A stretch of 64,000 nt of DNA from Candidatus Hodarchaeota archaeon (GTDB lineage Archaea; Asgardarchaeota; Heimdallarchaeia; Hodarchaeales; Hodarchaeaceae), in the NCBI GenBank assembly GCA_016840035.1, contig JAEOTC010000038.1:62001-126000 (forward strand), read 5' to 3'. The stretch's first letter is position 1; each line of letters starts with the position of its first letter. Made by a program: the position numbers and the translations under genes. This document shows positions 807 through 13,094 of this stretch, in pieces. The notes below the pieces were generated by a model. It saw nothing but the letters and a program-made list of their open reading frames with translations. It had not been told where the DNA came from and searched no databases.

Positions 807-1598
807 TCAAGAAAAGAAATTGAATTCAATCGTTTTTTGCTCTGAATCAGCCCAAGAGGCTTTCTTTGACTTCACCATTAATTTCATTATTATTTGTAAA
901 TCCTTAGGGGGTAGTGATGACCAAGTTTGGTTCATTTTGACCATGTCGTATAGAGTTACCATCTCAAATCCATTTTGGAAGCTGTAATTAAATATTTCTT
1001 CTGCAAAAGAATTTAGGGTCTTCCAATATACTCGAAGGCGCGTTTCGTCTGTGTCCCACCATGTGGCTTTTTCCTGTTCAATCAAATATTCGGAAATGGC
1101 TTTGAGTTGCGGGATCGAGAGTTTTTTATGGAGAATTCCATTTTGAAAGGGATAGACCAAACTAATTTCTTGAAGGTCAAGAATATGCTGATTCAAAACT
1201 CTTGCGAATGCAAGTAAAAAGTCTCCCCATGTGATTAGCCATTGTTGTTTTAACTCTGGATCTTCTGGGATCATCCAACGCCAAGGTTTCGATACCCAGC
1301 CTGGTAATATTGGCTTAACATTTGGATGAACAGTTCCAGGTTTTAACTCTGAGATGGATATTCTCTCTACTGGCTTGGTTACCACTTTTTCGACTGTTAA
1401 TGTTCTAGATGGAACTTGAATTTGTGGTAAAGTATGGGTTATTGTTTCTTTCTCAAACTTTGGTGTTTCAACCTTAGATGGGGCGGAAGAATCCGTAGTT
1501 ACATCTTGAAGGACTTCTTCAAGGACATCAATATTACTTTTTTTCTTCTCGACCTTTTCCTTCTTTCGTTGTAATTCTGCCATCCAAGAACAACTCAA
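807..1598 (-). CDS. vps25: ESCRT-II subunit Vps25-like
   Basis: Probable Vps25 subunit of ESCRT-II, the complex that links ESCRT-I to ESCRT-III. Residues 1-110 are low-complexity and charged, without counterpart in eukaryotic Vps25. The Vps25-like part covers about 120-263: a W-rich segment (WGDFLLAFARVLNQH, YPFQNGILHKKL), then two winged-helix-like repeats, the second with TLYDMV and a closing helix (LQIIMKLMVKSKKASWAD) ending in a beta strand, as in Vps25. The gene is the last of the Vps22-ESCRT-III-Vps4-Vps25 run on the minus strand, 27 bases after vps4. The acidic/serine-rich N-terminal extension (about 110 residues) is the unusual part. Family assignment rests on pattern and context. Confidence 0.82.
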   Translation of the reverse strand: MSCSWMAELQRKKEKVEKKKSNIDVLEEVLQDVTTDSSAPSKVETPKFEKETITHTLPQIQVPSRTLTVEKVVTKPVERISISELKPGTVHPNVKPILPGWVSKPWRWMIPEDPELKQQWLITWGDFLLAFARVLNQHILDLQEISLVYPFQNGILHKKLSIPQLKAISEYLIEQEKATWWDTDETRLRVYWKTLNSFAEEIFNYSFQNGFEMVTLYDMVKMNQTWSSLPPKDLQIIMKLMVKSKKASWADSEQKTIEFNFFS

Positions 1599-1625: not shown

Positions 1626-2771
1626 TTATCCACCAAATTTATCTCGCCAATCATCATATCGTGCAAGTTCACTAGGAGCTACAGAAGGCCGAATATGTAT
1701 CATTGCATTATGAAAGTCTGTTGCTGTTGGAGCTCGTACTTGAACACTCATGTCTGTTAGTGCTCCCTCTGCATCTAATTCTCTAATTGGCTGCATTAAC
1801 GATTCACGACATAATAGTGCAATATCTGCCGCAGTATATCCTCCAGTGATTTCAGCTAATGCTCTGAAATCCACATCCGTATCTACTGGTACTCCTTTGG
1901 TATGGATTGAAAACATCACTTCCCTAGCCTCCTTGGTTGGAAGTGTCACATAAACACGCCGCTCAAATCTTCTTCGCATTGCAGCATCAATATCCCAAGG
2001 TGTATTTGTTGCTCCAACCGTAACCAGAAGTTCATCCCCTGTAGCAAATCCTTCAACTGCCTGTAAAAGCTGTGTTTTAACTCGTCTCATTGCTTCACCT
2101 TCAGAACTACCACCACGAGTTCCAGCTAGAGCATCAATTTCATCAAAAAAGATAATCGAGGGTGCCTCTTCGACAGCTCGTTCATACAATTCATTAACTA
2201 GCTTCTCAGACTCACCTAACCATTTACTTATTAGATTGGCAGCACTAACAGAGAAAAAAGTTGAATCAACTTCCGATGCGACAGCTTTGCATAGATATGT
2301 CTTTCCACATCCAGGGGGTCCAAACATCAAAATCCCCTTCCATGGTTTCCGTGCACCTTTGAATAAATCAGGTCGTGACATAGGTAGGATAATAGCTTCC
2401 CTTAATGCACGTTTAGCATCTTCCATCCCAGCAACATCTTCCCATTTCACATTGGGTTTTTCTCTTACAATTACGCTTGAGATAGCATCTTCTATTTCAT
2501 TACTTTTTTGGGCTTGGGAGGAAGGAGAGGGTGTAGAGGTTTCAGAAGGTTCAATAATTCCTCTTATTTCTTTCACACGAAGGATGTACTCCATCGCCTT
2601 GTGATAATAGAGATTTTTCATATTTGGATCGTCAGTGAAATTTATAAGTTTCTGTAACTGTTCTGCAGCAGAAACATAGTATTTAACTGCTTGTTGTGTC
2701 TGTCCACTCTGATCCAGCTTGTATGCTAAACTAGCATTCTTTTTAGCTGCTTCAAATAAAGGAGAACCCAT
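1626..2771 (-). CDS. vps4: Vps4-type AAA ATPase with MIT domain
   Basis: AAA ATPase that disassembles ESCRT-III filaments. Residues 1-75 form a three-helix MIT domain that would bind MIM motifs at ESCRT-III C-termini; a proline/serine-rich linker follows; the AAA cassette has Walker A GPPGCGKT (151-158), Walker B IIFFDE (207-212), the pore-loop-like SKWLGESEK, a sensor GATNTPWDID and arginine fingers in MRRRFERR. The C-terminal helix (about 365-381, ARYDDWRDKFG) is the Vps4 signature ending. It sits between the two ESCRT-III genes and Vps25, on the same strand. 381 residues is close to eukaryotic Vps4, with no oddity. Confidence 0.97.
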   Translation of the reverse strand: MGSPLFEAAKKNASLAYKLDQSGQTQQAVKYYVSAAEQLQKLINFTDDPNMKNLYYHKAMEYILRVKEIRGIIEPSETSTPSPSSQAQKSNEIEDAISSVIVREKPNVKWEDVAGMEDAKRALREAIILPMSRPDLFKGARKPWKGILMFGPPGCGKTYLCKAVASEVDSTFFSVSAANLISKWLGESEKLVNELYERAVEEAPSIIFFDEIDALAGTRGGSSEGEAMRRVKTQLLQAVEGFATGDELLVTVGATNTPWDIDAAMRRRFERRVYVTLPTKEAREVMFSIHTKGVPVDTDVDFRALAEITGGYTAADIALLCRESLMQPIRELDAEGALTDMSVQVRAPTATDFHNAMIHIRPSVAPSELARYDDWRDKFGG

Positions 2772-2824
2772 GATTTCATCACATAAATAAATATGCTTTC
2801 TTAAATAAATGCGTGGTCAAAAGA

Positions 2825-3439
2825 TCAGCTTTTCTTGATTTTTTCAAGTTCTTTTTGAAGTTCTTGGGATCGAATATCGGGTGAGGGAAGACCAAAATCT
2901 GCTGTAGCAGCTTTAGAGGCACTAATTTCTCCAAGGATTTTTTCCACCATCTCATCTTCTTCTACATCGGATGTCATCATTTCAAAACCCTCATCCATTG
3001 CCTCTGTCGCAACATCTACACGTTCTGTTTCAATTTCCATTTGTTGAAGAACACCTTCAAGCTGAGGAATTTTTAATTGAGCGTTCATCTGATGCAATGT
3101 GCGAACAAGACCCTTGAGATCTTTCCCGATTGCTTGAGTTGCGGCTGCTTGTTCAAGTTTGAATTTTATGGCCTTTACTCGACTAGCCATCTGTTGACAG
3201 GCACGAGCCATGTTTCGATTTTTGGCCACATCCTTAGCTAATAATCTAGCAGTTGACATATCCCCATCATCTATCGCTTTCTCGACTTCCTTCAGCATGC
3301 TTCGTTCTTCTTTTTGTAATTTTCTTCTTTGACGTAACATGCGTTTTTCGACCATTCTAAGTCGCACAATCCATTTTCGTGTCGAACCTGCACCGCTTCC
3401 TCCACCTTTGAGCCATTGACCAAATTTATCAAAAACCAT
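2825..3439 (-). CDS. ESCRT-III subunit, Vps2/24/46 (CHMP1-3) class
   Basis: Snf7-domain protein that polymerises on membranes. The basic N-terminal helix pair (RKWIVRLRMVEKRMLRQRRKLQKEE), the long Arg/Lys-rich hairpin to about residue 110, then acidic helices from 125 onward are the ESCRT-III layout. The charged pattern resembles the Vps2/Vps24/Vps46 branch. The last residues (LQKELEKIKK) resemble a MIM1 motif (L..xL..I/LK), although the usual arginine before the second leucine is glutamate; this is the expected docking site for the MIT domain of the adjacent Vps4. The stop of the upstream ESCRT-III gene is 2 bases before this start region, so both are co-transcribed. Confidence 0.9.
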   Translation of the reverse strand: MVFDKFGQWLKGGGSGAGSTRKWIVRLRMVEKRMLRQRRKLQKEERSMLKEVEKAIDDGDMSTARLLAKDVAKNRNMARACQQMASRVKAIKFKLEQAAATQAIGKDLKGLVRTLHQMNAQLKIPQLEGVLQQMEIETERVDVATEAMDEGFEMMTSDVEEDEMVEKILGEISASKAATADFGLPSPDIRSQELQKELEKIKKS

Positions 3440-3441
3440 GT

Positions 3442-4116
3442 TTATGACCTCAATCCTTCTTCGATCTGTTTTCGCATTTCATCTAATTTCTTTTTATCTG
3501 CTTCACGTTTACCTGAGGTATCTTCAGATATCGGAGAAGTGGGTGTTGCAGAAACACTTGTGTCACTTGCTGGTAAAGAGCCAGATAATTCAGCTTCTAG
3601 CTCTGCCATTTGCATTGAGATCCGATCATCAGCTTCTACATCCATTCCTATTTCTGTAATCGATGTATCGGTTAATGCTTCTTCCATATCGGACACCATT
3701 TCGATAGAATCTTCAAGAGACATCATAACTTCTTCCGTTTTTTCAGGAGAGGCGGCCTCGATATTACTGTCAATTGCAGTTTGAGCTTGTGAAAGAGTTT
3801 CAGTTAATGTAACATTATCCGCAGATATGTCCAGTGTTTCAATGGTTCTTTGTAAATTAGCTATCTTACTATGAGTACTCGTTATTTGTGTTAAATACAA
3901 TTCACGCCGCTTTAATGCTTGGTGTGCTCCTGGTTTATTTCCAGACTTTAATAATTGACGTGCTAACTCATATTGCTCATCAGATTGTCGTTGATAGTTT
4001 TTTACTTTTATTTCCATTTGATTGATGGTTCTTTTTAACTTCGCTTTCGTCTCAGTTGATGAAGATGGTTTCGATCCTGTTAAGAATCCTTTAAGTCGTT
4101 TCAATTGTGTTTTCAA
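3442..4116 (-). CDS. ESCRT-III subunit, Snf7/Vps20 (CHMP4/6) class
   Basis: Second Snf7-domain subunit of the ESCRT-III machinery. Residues 1-100 form the basic helical hairpin (KAKLKRTINQMEIKVKNYQRQ ... ALKRRELYLTQI), with a bend and acidic helices from about 120. The serine/threonine-rich stretch at 178-200 separates a final helix (KKKLDEMRKQIEEGL) that could serve as a MIM-like element. Two different ESCRT-III paralogues next to Vps4 is the known Asgard arrangement, corresponding to the two eukaryotic classes. Class assignment is from the pattern of charges and would need a tree. Confidence 0.88.
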   Translation of the reverse strand: MKTQLKRLKGFLTGSKPSSSTETKAKLKRTINQMEIKVKNYQRQSDEQYELARQLLKSGNKPGAHQALKRRELYLTQITSTHSKIANLQRTIETLDISADNVTLTETLSQAQTAIDSNIEAASPEKTEEVMMSLEDSIEMVSDMEEALTDTSITEIGMDVEADDRISMQMAELEAELSGSLPASDTSVSATPTSPISEDTSGKREADKKKLDEMRKQIEEGLRS

Positions 4117-4315: not shown

Positions 4316-5035
4316 TTACCCAACCCCGGGGAATGAAATTAAGACGCCGTCTAGGGTATTAGATTTAATTGCGATTTTTTTACTAATTAATCCCTCTAAT
4401 GATCTTTCAACTCGTTCTATTGTCCAAGCTGTTTTCTGAATTAATTCCGCTGTTGTAATCTGCCCATTAGCAAGTGCTGCAATTTCTAATATCTTTTGAT
4501 GGTCTTTTGTCAATTCTGGATCTGAAAATTCAATAATTTTCATTCCAGCTAGTGTACGTATCTGATGAAGCAATCCATTAGTGGTAAGTAGTTTTAGGGC
4601 TTTATTAACATCTTCTATAGATACAACAATCCCTTTACTTTCATCATTGAGTTTTAAAATCAATTCTGATACGCTAAGGATTCCTCCTGATTGATTTCGT
4701 ACCTGTTTCCCTATTTCAATAATCCTTAGGCCAAGGTAATTGGTGTATTCATCCTTACCTTTCAATCTATCTTTGAATGACGACTTTTTACTAATATCAT
4801 AAATTCCAATTGCGAGAGGAAGCCCTAATTCCTCACGTAATTTCATGACTTTCTGGGCAAGGTCGGGATTCTTCTTAATATCAGTCTTGTATTGGGCTTC
4901 AAGTTTTTGCAATTCTTTATGTAAATTACGAATTCTTTTGCTCATCTCATCGAGAGATTTAAGAGCCAACTGACTACCTTTTACTTTCAGTGCTGCTTCT
5001 TGAGTGATCTTCTCTTCAATTCGTCGTAGGCCCAT
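4316..5035 (-). CDS. vps22: ESCRT-II subunit Vps22/SNF8-like (EAP30 domain)
   Basis: ESCRT-II core subunit. The N-terminus (MGLRRIEEKITQEAALKVKGSQLA, then DEMSKRIRNLHKELQKLEAQYKTDIKKNPDLAQK) closely follows eukaryotic SNF8/Vps22, including the KNPE/D motif and a following helix with GLPLAIG. YLGLRIIEIGKQVRNQSGG matches the start of the EAP30 winged helix, and a second winged helix covers about 165-239. It partners Vps25 encoded 3 kb downstream. An SD-like AGGAAT precedes the ATG, and an upstream TATA-like box is annotated separately. Paralogue Vps36 is not recognised in the window; the neighbouring divergent zinc-finger gene may fill that role. Confidence 0.9.
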   Translation of the reverse strand: MGLRRIEEKITQEAALKVKGSQLALKSLDEMSKRIRNLHKELQKLEAQYKTDIKKNPDLAQKVMKLREELGLPLAIGIYDISKKSSFKDRLKGKDEYTNYLGLRIIEIGKQVRNQSGGILSVSELILKLNDESKGIVVSIEDVNKALKLLTTNGLLHQIRTLAGMKIIEFSDPELTKDHQKILEIAALANGQITTAELIQKTAWTIERVERSLEGLISKKIAIKSNTLDGVLISFPGVG

Positions 5036-5377
5036 CTTATTATTCCTCGAGAGCTCGATATTATGAGGTCACTTTGATCTTGTCAATGTTTATTTATAAT
5101 TTTTTACAATACGATACAAAAAATCAGAGTAGAAGGACTAATTAATCATTTCAAATCATCTATTTGAATCGTTGAACATGAGAAAACAGAGAGAAGAACT
5201 TACTAGGTAATTCTTTGTATTCACAAATAGGTTTGCGATTTCAATATTTTTAGAGTTCAATAGTTTTAAACAAGAAGCACTCCAATTCACTAAGTACTGA
5301 TTCTTTCCTGTCATCTTACTGTAGTGTTATATTCATTTAAATATCAACATTCAGTGTAAACTAGGTAGGGAACGTCT
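5036..5377. promoter_or_regulatory. Divergent promoter region between vps22 and the ZnF/PH-like gene
   Basis: This gap separates two divergent genes. On the minus strand TTATAAATAA (5090-5099) sits where a TATA box for vps22 would lie, giving a leader of about 30 bases. On the plus strand TTTAAATA (5336-5343) is about 27 bases before the expected start of a short leader to the TTG of the zinc-finger gene. The remainder is AT-rich with no open frame or RNA structure that I can recognise. Promoter calls rest on spacing and composition only. Confidence 0.45.
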
Positions 5378-6724
5378 TTGGGTCTAAGTTCATCTTCTTC
5401 TGACTCGACGGGTTACTGTTCTTTTTGCGGATCAGGACTCGTTTCTTCGGAAGTTCACAAGTGTTTAGATTGTGGTGCTACGTTTTGTCAGCAATGTGCA
5501 ACACGATCTCTTATGACTGGTTCCCAACTTAAATGTTCATGTGGTTCACCCAATATTGAAGCGTTTGACCACATCAAAAATGGAAAAGCTGATCTATTAG
5601 AGGAAATTTTCGATCTAAAACGCTCACTTAAGCAGGTAGGTTACCGGCCAGTTATTCTCTTAAAGCGAACAGGCCAGTTAGAGACACGATTACGTTCCTT
5701 CAGAAAGCAGTTTCTTATTCCAGGTAATTTAATTGATAAGATATTCCTAGAGACGAAAAAAATCGAAAATTTTACACTCAATGAGTTTCAAGAATATACT
5801 TCTAAACTCCAACGAATTTATCACAATGTTGTGCGTCATCCCATTACCGAAAATTCATTCCGAAACTCCTCTCTCCAAATTTCTCTATTTCAAAAACACA
5901 TTGCGAGTTTTGATCAAACTGTGCTCTCTAAGCTTGAATCAATCTCTAAGTTAATTGAGCAGGTTGAAAAACAATGCGATCAATTTGATGAAATGAGAAA
6001 AAATCTTGCTCGTTGTATCGATGTCTTTGTATTAATCCCTGGTGAATTAGGCATCGGATATTTTTCGAATTTAGATCTCCATAATGACAGTTTTAGAAAA
6101 TCTATTGTTGATTTTATTATTACAACTGACAGGATTGCCCTGATAAGGAAAAAACGAACAAATGTCCTTGGACATAAGATGATAATTTTTGATGAATTTC
6201 CACCCAAAGCTTTGATGGACGTGCAGAAAAAGAATTCGGGATTCTTAAAACGAGATAAGCTTCTAATCACCGCCATTAAGCGAGATTTCGTTATTCAATC
6301 CGATGAACACACCCTTTTACGGATTTTCGACTCATTAAAACTCAGTTATCTTGGTCGGCCAAGTGATCTCTATATTAATGAGCCTTTTAGGGATTGGTCC
6401 TCCGAGATTTATCAGGAAAAGATCCTATCTGCATTAAATTTTCAAAATAAGAAGAATTCATCTTCTTCTCCTCTCAAAGCAAACACAAAAGTCCCTGAAA
6501 ATCTTCCTGATTTTGTTAACGGTTTTTTAGAAGAAAGATTACGTGATCTGAGGATCCATGAACTTGCTGCTAAAAGAGCATTACAGGAACTTAAAGAGGG
6601 ACGTAAAAAGGTTGCAGGACGAGAATATTTCGAATTACTAAAACAGTTTGAATTTGAACTCGCAAAAATTGCAGAAGAACGAACAGAACTCCTAATTCGG
6701 ACTGGTAAAACTAATCTTCTATGA
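5378..6724 (+). CDS. Unrecognised zinc-finger + PH/GLUE-like + helical-hairpin protein in ESCRT cluster
   Basis: No family recognised with certainty. Residues 14-55 hold eight cysteines as CxxC, CxxC, CxxC and CxC (14, 17, 29, 32, 37, 40, 53, 55), a cross-brace arrangement of RING/FYVE type. Residues 60-215 are helical. Residues about 217-325 alternate strands and end in a helix (VFVLIPGELGIGYFSN, IITTDRIALI, LLITAIKRDFVI, LLRIFDSLK), which looks like a PH/GRAM/GLUE fold. The C-terminus (380-440) is a charged helical hairpin similar in style to the Vps23 steadiness box and the Vps28 N-terminus. It starts with TTG, is divergent from vps22, and converges on vps28 with only 6 bases between stops. 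By context it could be a Vps36-like or Vps37-like membrane-binding ESCRT subunit; this is inference. Confidence 0.7.
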   Translation: MGLSSSSSDSTGYCSFCGSGLVSSEVHKCLDCGATFCQQCATRSLMTGSQLKCSCGSPNIEAFDHIKNGKADLLEEIFDLKRSLKQVGYRPVILLKRTGQLETRLRSFRKQFLIPGNLIDKIFLETKKIENFTLNEFQEYTSKLQRIYHNVVRHPITENSFRNSSLQISLFQKHIASFDQTVLSKLESISKLIEQVEKQCDQFDEMRKNLARCIDVFVLIPGELGIGYFSNLDLHNDSFRKSIVDFIITTDRIALIRKKRTNVLGHKMIIFDEFPPKALMDVQKKNSGFLKRDKLLITAIKRDFVIQSDEHTLLRIFDSLKLSYLGRPSDLYINEPFRDWSSEIYQEKILSALNFQNKKNSSSSPLKANTKVPENLPDFVNGFLEERLRDLRIHELAAKRALQELKEGRKKVAGREYFELLKQFEFELAKIAEERTELLIRTGKTNLL

Positions 6725-6730
6725 GAAGTA

Positions 6731-7351
6731 TTATAGATTCTTTAATTCTCTTCTAAAGTCTGATAGCCATCGTGATGCCTGAAGCTCTAATTTTTTGAGT
6801 TCGTCAGACTTCAATAATTGTCCTGGCTTTTGTTTGTCCATCCAGATTATCCATTGATTAATATCGTTAGTGACCCAGTGATTATCCCCATACATCGGTG
6901 CTCTAATCAGGATATCGTGAATTTCATCTAAGTAGGGTAAAACACGATCAACTGTTGCAATTGATTCTAGATGGAGAAGGTCAAGAAGCTCTATAGCATT
7001 CGCTACGAATTCTGCAGCAATTGTTGGGAGTTTTTTGATATGTGAATAGTCAATCTGGCTATAGGTATTATCATCCGCTCCTTCTGTCATCTTGAGCTTG
7101 GATAACCCTGAAGGAAATAGTTGAGCAATTCCCTCTTCTTCGATAAAACGATCTACATCAAAATTGTATTGTTCTAATTCAGCACGTGTCTCAATAATTC
7201 TCGTAAGAAGAGTTCTATGTTGTTTATGGTAGGTACTTGAATCGATTTCCCCACGATCATAGGTACGCGAAATCAAGTCAAGAGTACCAATATTCGCAAA
7301 TAATCGGGCTTCTAGATCCCATCTGTGTGTTAAGTTCTGGGGGAATGACAT
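6731..7351 (-). CDS. vps28: ESCRT-I subunit Vps28-like
   Basis: ESCRT-I subunit bridging to ESCRT-II. The N-terminal part (residues 10-50, LEARLFANIGTLDLISRTYDRGEIDSSTY) matches the Vps28 headpiece hairpin (ELFAVVKTMQALEKAY...SPSEY). The C-terminal four-helix part (about 110-206) has the Vps28 pattern of VDRVLPYLDEIHDIL, then a tryptophan-rich WVTNDINQWIIWMD and LELQASRWLSDFRREL. The length matches eukaryotic Vps28 (about 220). It lies 9 bases downstream of the Vps23-like gene, so both are cotranslated, and it ends against the convergent zinc-finger gene. Confidence 0.88.
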   Translation of the reverse strand: MSFPQNLTHRWDLEARLFANIGTLDLISRTYDRGEIDSSTYHKQHRTLLTRIIETRAELEQYNFDVDRFIEEEGIAQLFPSGLSKLKMTEGADDNTYSQIDYSHIKKLPTIAAEFVANAIELLDLLHLESIATVDRVLPYLDEIHDILIRAPMYGDNHWVTNDINQWIIWMDKQKPGQLLKSDELKKLELQASRWLSDFRRELKNL

Positions 7352-7360
7352 TGGCTTTAC

Positions 7361-8095
7361 CTAACTCAAGTATTGGAGTTGTTTCCGTAGTAAATACAAC
7401 TCTTTTGTATATTTCTTATACAGTCGTGAATACTCAAAGATTGAGATTTCACCGGCTGCGTAGCGATCTTCTAGGGAGGAGAGTAAATCTGAGATAGCTA
7501 TCCTTTCAGATTCAAGTTCTTCTTGGTCTGAAACCTTCAAACTTCGTGATCTTGATGATTCTTCGGGGTTAATCATAGATCTGGCTCTAAATCTTGCCAG
7601 TTCCTCATCTTTTGCCGTAAGTCGAGCATTCAAAGAAGATAATTCCGTACGTAATGCTTTTGTTTCCACGGCAGATTTAGAAACTCGTTTTTCAACTGTT
7701 GGTTCTGTTAATCTCACCATTGTATCACGAACGGATCTCGCGGTTTCTCCACGGGGTGTAGGCGGTACTCGTGACATGAGATTCTTTAATGCTATGATTA
7801 CTTGGTAAAGGTGAAATTCCGCTCTCCAATTATCCAGAATTCTCAATTGAATGAAACCATCCTTGTCAATATTGGGATGGTCCATCCATCCAATTGCAGT
7901 TACAACTGGAGGAACATTAGGAAAGTATTCTGGGAGAAAAATTTCAAATGTAAACATATTCCTTCCCTTGTTTGTAGTATACGTCAATGTCCCTTGCCAA
8001 CGAGCAAGAGATTCTCCTACTGGATTGAATCCTGATGCAGCGCTATTTGAATATGTTAATTGTGCCTCTCTCGCTAATATAAAATCTCTATCCAT
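7361..8095 (-). CDS. vps23: ESCRT-I subunit Vps23/TSG101-like (UEV domain + steadiness box)
   Basis: E2-variant ubiquitin reader of ESCRT-I. Residues 1-135 form an E2-like fold: FLPEYFPNVPP, HPNIDKDG, then FIQLRIL where active E2s have IxLxIL with a catalytic cysteine; here glutamine occupies the cysteine position and the whole protein contains no cysteine, so it cannot form a thioester. A coiled coil (about 145-170) is followed by a C-terminal helical hairpin (LLSSLEDRYAAGEISIFEYSRLYKKY) that matches the TSG101 steadiness box, which assembles with Vps28 and Vps37. It is the first gene of a two-gene operon with vps28. UEV identity is strong; orthology to Vps23 rests on the domain order and partner gene. 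Confidence 0.88.
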   Translation of the reverse strand: MDRDFILAREAQLTYSNSAASGFNPVGESLARWQGTLTYTTNKGRNMFTFEIFLPEYFPNVPPVVTAIGWMDHPNIDKDGFIQLRILDNWRAEFHLYQVIIALKNLMSRVPPTPRGETARSVRDTMVRLTEPTVEKRVSKSAVETKALRTELSSLNARLTAKDEELARFRARSMINPEESSRSRSLKVSDQEELESERIAISDLLSSLEDRYAAGEISIFEYSRLYKKYTKELYLLRKQLQYLS

Positions 8096-10848: not shown

Positions 10849-11598
10849 GTGAGTGAATCAGAATCAATTGTATGTCCAAACTGTAGTGAAAGGAGTCCAG
10901 CTGGTTATATCTTATGCCCTTACTGTGGCTTTGATCTAACAAAAATACTGCGTCAGAGGCAGAAAATTGGAATTACCTTCAAAGAGCGATTTTCACGGAT
11001 TTGGAGAAGTCTTTCAGATCCTCGTGATAGTAAAATTCTATTCAATGAAATTGGAGTAAATCCAGATAGGTTAGGAGTGCTAATTCTATTATACCTTGTC
11101 TCAGTTTCGTATTCAACCGCTACAGTTGGAACTCTTGTAATAAAAGGGAGTAGTTCTTCTTGGCATGATTTTCACTTCTTTTATTTCCTTATTTCACCCT
11201 GGCTTGTTGGGATAGGCTTCCTGTTTTTGGCTTTATTTGGTTGGTTAATTTGCACACTCGTTATTTGGTTAATTGCCAAAACCCTTGGGGGAAAAGCAAG
11301 TTTACGTGACACGTATAGTATAGTGGGATATTCATTTGGCCCACTTATTACAGCTTCGTTGCTAATTTCTGTAGTAATTATTCTGCTTGGGAGTCCTCTG
11401 GAAATCGGTGATACTTTATCTTCCTCTGGTTACGGTATCTTTCATATACTCTATTTACCTTTCATAGCATTCTGTGCATATCATTGTGGGAATGGCCTTC
11501 AGTCTGGACATTTACTAAACCCAACGTACTCCTACATTCTTTCAGGTACAGTGGCAGGAGGATTTGCTATTTTATACCTAATTCCTGTTCTGGGTTGA
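10849..11598 (+). CDS. Zinc-ribbon + Yip1-like membrane protein
   Basis: The N-terminus has a CPNC...CPYC zinc ribbon (residues 9-27), followed by a basic linker and five hydrophobic segments. The membrane part (about 70-249), with an early amphipathic LFNEIGVNPDRLGVLI segment and evenly spaced helices, fits the Yip1/YIF1 superfamily, whose eukaryotic members bind Rab GTPases in ER-Golgi vesicles; prokaryotic Yip1-domain proteins are of unknown function. GTG start at 10849. It is convergent with the E1 gene (9 bases between ends). Yip1 assignment is by topology and pattern, so moderate. Confidence 0.65.
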   Translation: MSESESIVCPNCSERSPAGYILCPYCGFDLTKILRQRQKIGITFKERFSRIWRSLSDPRDSKILFNEIGVNPDRLGVLILLYLVSVSYSTATVGTLVIKGSSSSWHDFHFFYFLISPWLVGIGFLFLALFGWLICTLVIWLIAKTLGGKASLRDTYSIVGYSFGPLITASLLISVVIILLGSPLEIGDTLSSSGYGIFHILYLPFIAFCAYHCGNGLQSGHLLNPTYSYILSGTVAGGFAILYLIPVLG

Positions 11599-11607
11599 TA
11601 AAATAGA

Positions 11608-12642
11608 TTAGGAATCAAAATATACTTGAAATTTTAGTGGTTTAGAAAGTGAGGGATCAATTACACGAAGTATAGCTTCTGAGTCAATAATTTCATTCAA
11701 TCTCTTTGAAGTCTCACTAATCGTCTGTGTTCCAGAGATCATTACCATTTCCTTCCCTAAATTAAATGAATACCGTAATTGGTTCATAAAATCACCTATT
11801 AGCTGATCGATTGCTGATCTTACAGGAATAGCATTTAGTTGGTATTCACTAGAACAAACAAAACAGTCATCACGACGGGAAAGCTCGACAGCAGTAAATA
11901 CACCAGCGGTTCCATCCCAAAATAAGTATTCTTTGAGTGAAGGTAACTCTAAAATAATTTTCAATGTTTCTTGGGCCATCAATCCGCCTATTACAAAGGA
12001 AACACTGGATACTGATGGAATAACGTCATCAACAGGTTTCTTTTTGCGAGATTCTTTTCGTTGGTCCCCAAAAGGAGTACATGCCTTTTGAAGCTCTTCC
12101 TCTGGTATCAATGATTGACACTCTAAACAGGCATTTTCATGTGGGATAATCACCTGGAGATTACCTAAGAAACCAAACATCCCTCCTGACACTAGTGGAA
12201 GATCGTGCTCAACCACGTATGAATTAATCCATCTTCGATCAACGAATGTATCCAATCCTTCTACAATCACAGTCGCAGTTTCTAAATCAGCTTTTGTTAC
12301 ATCTTGAATTTTCATATTTAGAGGGGTAACTCTCAATTCAGGATTAATTTTCGATAACTCTCGTGCAGCTACTTCAACCTTCGATTTACCTACATCTTCC
12401 ATACGGAATAGTAACTGTCGATTTAGATTGCTAATCTCAATTGAATCGAAATCCACTAATACAAGTTCTCCTACTCCGGCCATCGCTAGTGAAACAGCTG
12501 CTACTGAACCCAAAGCTCCCAAACCTACAATTATTACCTTTCCCTTGTGTATTTTCTCTTGATCCCAATTTTCTATGAGTGTTTGCCTATCATACCTGAT
12601 TTTCTGGGATTCGTGAGTAAAATTGTTCATATTGTTCCCCAA
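11608..12642 (-). CDS. E1-like ubiquitin-activating enzyme
   Basis: Adenylates and thioesterifies the ubiquitin encoded just upstream. The ThiF/MoeB/UBA fold shows GLGALGS (40-46), DFDSIEISNLNRQLLFR (64-80) with the conserved Asp, Asn, Arg and Gln, the EGLDTFVDRRWIN crossover and zinc ligands C172/C175 with C260/C263. C188 in KACTP corresponds to the catalytic cysteine, and residues 270-344 form a separate C-terminal region suited to a ubiquitin-fold domain that recruits E2. At 344 residues it resembles single-domain archaeal E1 (Caldiarchaeum type) rather than eukaryotic UBA1. Ubiquitin lies 210 bases upstream on the same strand. Confidence 0.92.
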   Translation of the reverse strand: MGNNMNNFTHESQKIRYDRQTLIENWDQEKIHKGKVIIVGLGALGSVAAVSLAMAGVGELVLVDFDSIEISNLNRQLLFRMEDVGKSKVEVAARELSKINPELRVTPLNMKIQDVTKADLETATVIVEGLDTFVDRRWINSYVVEHDLPLVSGGMFGFLGNLQVIIPHENACLECQSLIPEEELQKACTPFGDQRKESRKKKPVDDVIPSVSSVSFVIGGLMAQETLKIILELPSLKEYLFWDGTAGVFTAVELSRRDDCFVCSSEYQLNAIPVRSAIDQLIGDFMNQLRYSFNLGKEMVMISGTQTISETSKRLNEIIDSEAILRVIDPSLSKPLKFQVYFDS

Positions 12643-12851: not shown

Positions 12852-13094
12852 TTATTTAACCGTTCCACCGGTTGTTCTCGTAATCATGTATAATTTATCT
12901 AAATCTTCAATACCCGCGGATTTTAATGTCTCGCTCTCATCAAGCTGTTTTCCCTGAAAAACTAAAATCACTGAACGGGCAGGAATACGTTTTTGTTGTG
13001 CAACGCGCTCTTTAATAGATGCTAATGATTCAGTTTTTTCACAAGTAAGCGTTATCTGTCCTCCTCCAATTGCTTGGACAATATTTATCTGCAT
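12852..13094 (-). CDS. ub: Ubiquitin-like modifier with C-terminal precursor tail
   Basis: Beta-grasp modifier. It starts MQI like ubiquitin, has SIKERVAQQKRIP in place of NVKAKIQDKEGIP, FQGKQL in place of FAGKQL (K49 aligns with ubiquitin K48) and the ...LDKLYMITR strand. The C-terminus is TGG at 75-77 followed by T-V-K, so a peptidase must cut after Gly77 before the E1 can act. No JAMM-type deubiquitinase is recognised in the window. The gene precedes the E1 on the same strand. The long T/A-rich gap after it (12643-12851) shows no other gene. Confidence 0.95.
   Translation of the reverse strand: MQINIVQAIGGGQITLTCEKTESLASIKERVAQQKRIPARSVILVFQGKQLDESETLKSAGIEDLDKLYMITRTTGGTVK

Follow-up and report, generated by a model that had tools for sequence, protein, structure and literature searches.

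The gene at positions 5378-6724 of the window (the whole 64,000-nucleotide stretch of DNA that was analysed) encodes a 448 aa protein, Znr-CC-PH-SB, which profile comparisons identify as a divergent member of the Znr_PH_CC_SB (Znr_CC_PH_SB) family. We propose, with a probability of about 60%, that this protein is a membrane-binding subunit of ESCRT-I, whose C-terminal hairpin would join Vps23 and Vps28 in the headpiece at the position of Vps37. Eukaryotic ESCRT-I has three hairpins, contributed by Vps23, Vps28 and Vps37, and the Hodarchaeales are considered among the groups closest to eukaryotes. Both Vps37 and Vps36 have been reported missing from Asgard archaea, with no full-length Vps36 found (PMC9192718), which leaves open how ESCRT-I contacts the membrane and how its headpiece is completed. 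A protein with a PH domain and an ESCRT-I hairpin in nearly all Asgard families, Hodarchaeales included, makes this question directly testable with recombinant proteins.

The family itself is not new. Makarova et al. 2024 (PMC10936438) described Znr_PH_CC_SB (cog.011556) as an Asgard-specific family with three zinc ribbons, a PH domain, a coiled coil and a steadiness box, and regarded it as a likely part of ESCRT-I. The original prediction of a new subunit therefore gives way to a divergent member of a published family, linked to it by profile searches and hhalign, and the ESCRT-I idea is likewise published. New are the two-zinc Hodarchaeal variant within the ESCRT cluster and the evidence that ties it to the family, as well as the near pan-Asgard count and a testable contrast with Odinarchaeota.

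The gene and its surroundings are composed as follows:
807-1598, minus strand: Vps25 (Pfam)
1626-2771, minus strand: Vps4 (Pfam)
2825-3439 and 3442-4116, minus strand: two ESCRT-III proteins of the Snf7 family (Pfam)
4316-5035, minus strand: Vps22 (EAP30), ESCRT-II (Pfam, E 1.1e-21), divergently transcribed from the Znr-CC-PH-SB gene
5336-5343, plus strand: putative archaeal TATA-box-like site, TTTAAATA, about 35 nt upstream of the start, read from the sequence
5363-5370, plus strand: putative ribosome-binding-site-like AGGTAGGG, likewise read from the sequence
5378-6724, plus strand: Znr-CC-PH-SB gene of Hodarchaeales, a single open frame of 448 codons with a TTG start
6731-7351, minus strand: Vps28, ESCRT-I (Pfam, E 2.5e-11), convergent with the Znr-CC-PH-SB gene at a distance of 6 bases
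7163-7330, minus strand: hairpin of Vps28 (profile alignment)
7361-8095, minus strand: Vps23 (UEV/E2 fold), ESCRT-I (Pfam)
7364-7528, minus strand: steadiness box of Vps23 (profile comparison)

The frame is a genuine gene, conserved far beyond chance, with orthologues of 56-89% identity in eight other genomes of the genus. Its long start is supported by three of these orthologues (L004, L007 and L009), in which an ATG start takes in the zinc module, and A/T-rich TATA-like sites are found at comparable positions in relatives of the gene. The predicted location between the ESCRT-II and ESCRT-I genes was borne out, with Vps22 on one side and Vps28 and Vps23 on the other; not mentioned in that prediction was that the gene runs on the strand opposite to all neighbouring ESCRT genes. 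A membrane protein with a Yip1 domain and a zinc ribbon at its N-terminus is also encoded near the window's ESCRT cluster (10849-11598, plus strand), and a similar protein lies directly upstream of Vps23 in two other genomes, G013 (L056 2402-3142) and G028 (L057 7553-8392).

The gene occupies the same place in all nine genomes of the genus in which the ESCRT cluster is assembled, and a fragment of an orthologue was found at a contig end in the related genus g3 (L010). Three further genomes of the genus lack both the gene and Vps28. We dropped this co-loss as evidence, since true orthologues of Vps4 and Vps22 are missing from them too and the cluster as a whole has probably failed to assemble there. 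Other genes occur between Vps22 and Vps28 elsewhere. Those found in another family of the class, f3 (L067 7878-9248, plus strand; L091 7581-8906, plus strand), are on the opposite strand and resemble RsmB/NusB-type methyltransferases; they were rejected as relatives, and the presence of such an unrelated gene suggests that the gap is prone to insertions. In several lineages the gap holds a gene of about 100 codons (L066 8835-9173, minus; L058 9042-9350, minus; L068 7869-8165, plus), which resembles a separate Vps28 C-terminal domain and is missing from the window's cluster. Family f7 has, next to its ESCRT genes, a Vps4-matching protein of 734-736 aa (L060 12148-14358, plus; L061 4798-7002, minus), a length sufficient for two AAA modules.

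Within the 448 aa, six segments can be distinguished, all on the plus strand:
5414-5566 (residues 13-63): zinc module with four Cys pairs, lacking the third zinc ribbon seen in the wider family
5570-6013 (residues 65-212): helical region of four long helices (AlphaFold, pLDDT about 90)
6041-6355 (residues 222-326, approximately): PH-fold domain (AlphaFold, structure matches)
6356-6448 (residues 327-357, GRPSDLYINEPFRDWSSEIYQEKILSALNFQ): conserved segment following the PH domain, mean identity 0.81, 61% invariant
6449-6508 (residues 358-377): variable linker, mean identity 0.23, pLDDT below 50
6509-6703 (residues 378-442): steadiness-box-like helical hairpin (AlphaFold and profile comparison)

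The helical region had not been listed among the predicted domains. AlphaFold modelling with nine close sequences produced the helices and the hairpin, while the PH region stayed at a pLDDT of about 30 and gave no useful Foldseek match. Modelling with 53 family members raised the mean pLDDT from 60.9 to 81.6 and brought the local value in the PH region to about 90, with seven strands in residues 225-308 followed by a helix at 310-325.

For the comparison with the wider family, reference members were picked by architecture and not by asCOG accession. A typical member encoded elsewhere in the class (L057 6013-7416) has exactly the Znr_PH_CC_SB architecture and lies near Vps23-Vps28; as a single-sequence query it matched 167 of 227 Asgard genomes and none of the 12 genomes of the window's genus. 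When 21 members from other lineages were combined into a profile, with the Hodarchaeal genus left out, this did find Hodarchaeales orthologues, each as the top match of its genome (E 1.3e-14 in G010 and 1.6e-7 in G002); a match in G012 (C390) was rejected as a chemoreceptor-like protein. Alignment of the Hodarchaeal with the wider family by hhalign gave 99.2% (E 1.7e-19) over 320 colinear columns, which cover the helical region, the PH domain and the hairpin, whereas seven ESCRT families used as controls, covering Vps28, Vps23, Vps22, Vps25, ESCRT-III and Vps4, gave at most 1.7%. The family's domain order, from zinc module through coiled coil and PH domain to steadiness box, is present in the protein, and the shared alignment revealed a common PH motif and showed that Hodarchaeales have lost the third zinc ribbon. 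As the protein has four Cys pairs (two putative zinc sites) compared with six pairs in other members, we file it as a Znr_PH_CC_SB variant.

The C-terminal charged hairpin had been likened to those of the Vps23 and Vps28 headpiece, and the family profile and the predicted hairpin both agree with this. Residues 378-442 are 41-43% charged and show a mean identity of 0.79, compared with 0.58 in the zinc module. A combined hairpin profile matched Vps23 (97.6%, E 3.7e-12) and Vps28 (95.3%, E 2e-8), in register across the turn and the following tyrosine, while controls with reversed alignments and with ESCRT-III, Vps22, Vps25 and Vps4 gave 16% or less. Searched against the PDB, the profile matched in register TSG101 (E 2.7e-4) and yeast Vps23 (E 4e-4 to 2e-3), structures 6vme, 2f66 and 2p22 being among those in register, and VPS37B came up at E 0.059; designed coiled coils and tropomyosin matched as well, some above TSG101, so the score is in part compositional. 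The Hodarchaeal rows, too few and too alike, matched Vps23 weakly on their own (8.8%, E 0.0038), and the assignment thus leans on the whole family, in which 11 of 53 members also match Pfam Vps23_core. The turn is 1-2 residues shorter than in Vps23. By these profile comparisons, the family hairpin is homologous to the Vps23 steadiness box and, less strongly, to the hairpin of Vps28.

A PH-like domain had also been predicted, its absence being named as grounds to discard the idea; the model contains the fold, a barrel of seven strands with a C-terminal helix as its cap, as in the PH superfamily. PH-GRAM, PH and GLUE structures all matched it at Z 12-13.5, including the PH-GRAM domain of MTMR2 (Z 13.5, 108 residues, 2.6 Å) and the GLUE domain of EAP45 (Z 12.7, 108 residues, 3.0 Å), the latter tied with many others. 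Matches spread over so many PH domains indicate a PH fold, no nearer to GLUE than to numerous other PH domains. Pfam bPH_3 was matched by 14 of the 53 relatives, and a PH-only sequence profile retrieved from the PDB just bacterial PH proteins (E about 1e-3). DH-PH Rho exchange factors, which headed the Foldseek list, were rejected, as their helical parts superimpose at an rmsd of 7-20 Å and the match amounts to a PH domain plus any helical bundle.

The alignment with EAP45 GLUE could be taken to mean that Znr-CC-PH-SB acts in place of Vps36, with a PH domain that stands in for GLUE and, together with the zinc module, bridges ESCRT-I to ESCRT-II (Vps22/Vps25). The gene adjoins Vps22, a full-length Vps36 has not been found in Asgard archaea (PMC9192718), and the Pfam Vps36 model touches 4 of the 53 relatives (best E 0.0011). 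We consider this role improbable, because other PH domains such as that of MTMR2 match as well or better, bPH_3 and GRAM are matched by more relatives than the Vps36 model, and a winged-helix pair is lacking: the EAP30 winged-helix core had no Pfam match in the 448 aa protein and is not one of the families that its relatives match most often, and the model consists of helices and a PH domain. The earlier suggestion that the protein may do the work of two eukaryotic subunits thus stays an analogy, given a PH fold as near to many other PH domains as to GLUE and neither a Vps36 winged-helix pair nor a Mod_r domain. A possible Vps36-like candidate is a second, divergent Vps22-like protein of 333 aa (about 36% identical; L162, G000:C112, 1479-2480, plus strand). 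The gene directly after it (2490-3383, plus strand) resembles SPFH/prohibitin proteins and has a SHOCT-like C-terminus; similar paralogues of Vps22 are present in almost every genome of the genus, even where the ESCRT cluster is missing.

Two other readings start from the N-terminus, where the predicted zinc finger was recovered as a module of paired cysteines (C14/C17, C29/C32, C37/C40 and C53/C55) whose eight ligands have the cross-brace spacing of RING and B-box fingers, an assignment also suggested by profile matches. The four pairs are common to eight orthologues, with one ligand substituted in L007, and these orthologues also have the helical and PH-like regions, the conserved segment 327-357, the variable linker and the hairpin in common. 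Were this module the RING-type domain of an E3 ubiquitin ligase, with the hairpin recruiting it to ESCRT-I, the matches of the zinc profile to the RING fingers of RNF4, BRE1 and Polycomb proteins (E 5e-9 to 1e-3) would fit, as would two nearby genes, one for a ubiquitin-like protein and one for an E1-like enzyme. The Hodarchaeal finger stays below every Pfam cut-off, however, and the Pfam family matched by most relatives (26 of 53) is the B-box; B-boxes are not generally known to recruit an E2. A ligase is accordingly the remotest of the readings considered here. The ubiquitin-like protein (12852-13094, minus strand) ends in Gly-Gly followed by TVK and would thus need trimming before conjugation; the E1-like gene lies at 11608-12642 on the minus strand. 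Alternatively, Znr-CC-PH-SB might act as an ESCRT-0-like, membrane-side adaptor, its PH domain and RING/B-box-like zinc module recognising the membrane and ubiquitinated cargo and its hairpin docking transiently on ESCRT-I, not as a stoichiometric headpiece subunit. Such an adaptor would agree with the gene's putative promoter of its own on the opposite strand, with the separation of the orthologue and Vps28 on different contigs in many lineages and with the lack of a recognised Vps27-type ESCRT-0 in Asgard archaea (PMC10936438). Against it stand the homology of the hairpin to those of the headpiece itself and its conservation, which with that of segment 327-357 is the highest in the protein, and we regard an adaptor as unlikely.

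The distribution of the family bears on the proposed ESCRT-I role. With the combined profile, strong matches (E <= ~1e-31) were obtained in 199 of 227 Asgard genomes; the family is missing or weakly matched in families f8, f21-f25 and f29, and in five such genomes (f8, f23, f25 and f29 were checked) the top match of the profile is a steadiness-box region. The gene is linked to ESCRT genes in families f1, f5, f6, f10 and f11 alike, and members of the last four have it at most about 14 kb from Vps28, a pattern that favours an ESCRT role but says nothing on stoichiometry. In an Odinarchaeota genome (G173), whose Vps25 matches PDB 7pb9 over 170 residues, Vps23 and Vps28 are present and the combined profile found no Znr_PH_CC_SB; the best match of the hairpin-bearing profile there is Vps23, with Vps28 next but one.

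Odinarchaeal ESCRT-I has been measured as two Vps23 and one Vps28 (PMC9192718). A zinc module, a fold of lipid-binding type and an ESCRT-I assembly hairpin in one protein suggest that Znr-CC-PH-SB may fill the place of Vps37. As a membrane-binding ESCRT-I subunit, it would contribute the third hairpin of the headpiece, with its C-terminal hairpin packed against those of Vps23 and Vps28; segment 327-357 and the flexible linker would tie this hairpin to the PH domain, which would hold the complex on the membrane, and the zinc module may contact ubiquitin, ubiquitinated cargo or another ESCRT component. A second Vps23 would take the third place in Odinarchaeota, whereas lineages with Znr_PH_CC_SB could use its hairpin and gain a PH anchor. 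Besides the weak match of the Hodarchaeal rows, the shorter turn and the compositional share of the hairpin score, two further observations count against the headpiece proposal. The gene lies outside the Vps23-Vps28 operon and on the other strand, and a fused Vps23-Vps28 protein of Heimdallarchaeota reportedly self-dimerises in vitro (PMC9192718), although the Znr_PH_CC_SB protein was not in that assay; genomes with the fusion carry the family. A broader version, which we hold tentatively and at somewhat less than even odds, is that in most Asgards Znr_PH_CC_SB supplies the third headpiece hairpin as a forerunner or functional equivalent of Vps37 and also anchors ESCRT-I to the membrane, the two-Vps23 trimer of Odinarchaeota being derived.

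Compared with other members of its family, the Hodarchaeal form shares the domain order, the 320-column homology, a copy number near one per genome and the frequent proximity to ESCRT genes, but differs in the missing third zinc ribbon, the shorter hairpin turn, its escape from single-sequence searches and its opposite-strand position between Vps22 and Vps28. Like Vps36/EAP45, Znr-CC-PH-SB combines a domain of PH fold with zinc fingers in a single ESCRT protein; its zinc module, however, is N-terminal and not inserted in the PH domain, and the hairpin stands in place of the EAP30 winged-helix pair. Vps37 is without a zinc-PH module of this kind, and Pfam Mod_r, unmatched by the 448 aa protein, is also missing from the 25 Pfam families that its 53 relatives match most often; the likeness to Vps37 lies in the proposed third headpiece hairpin and in the reach of the family hairpin profile to VPS37B. 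With Vps23/TSG101 the protein has the C-terminal steadiness-box hairpin in common, as a homology at the profile level, and in place of the UEV domain it carries the zinc module and the PH fold.
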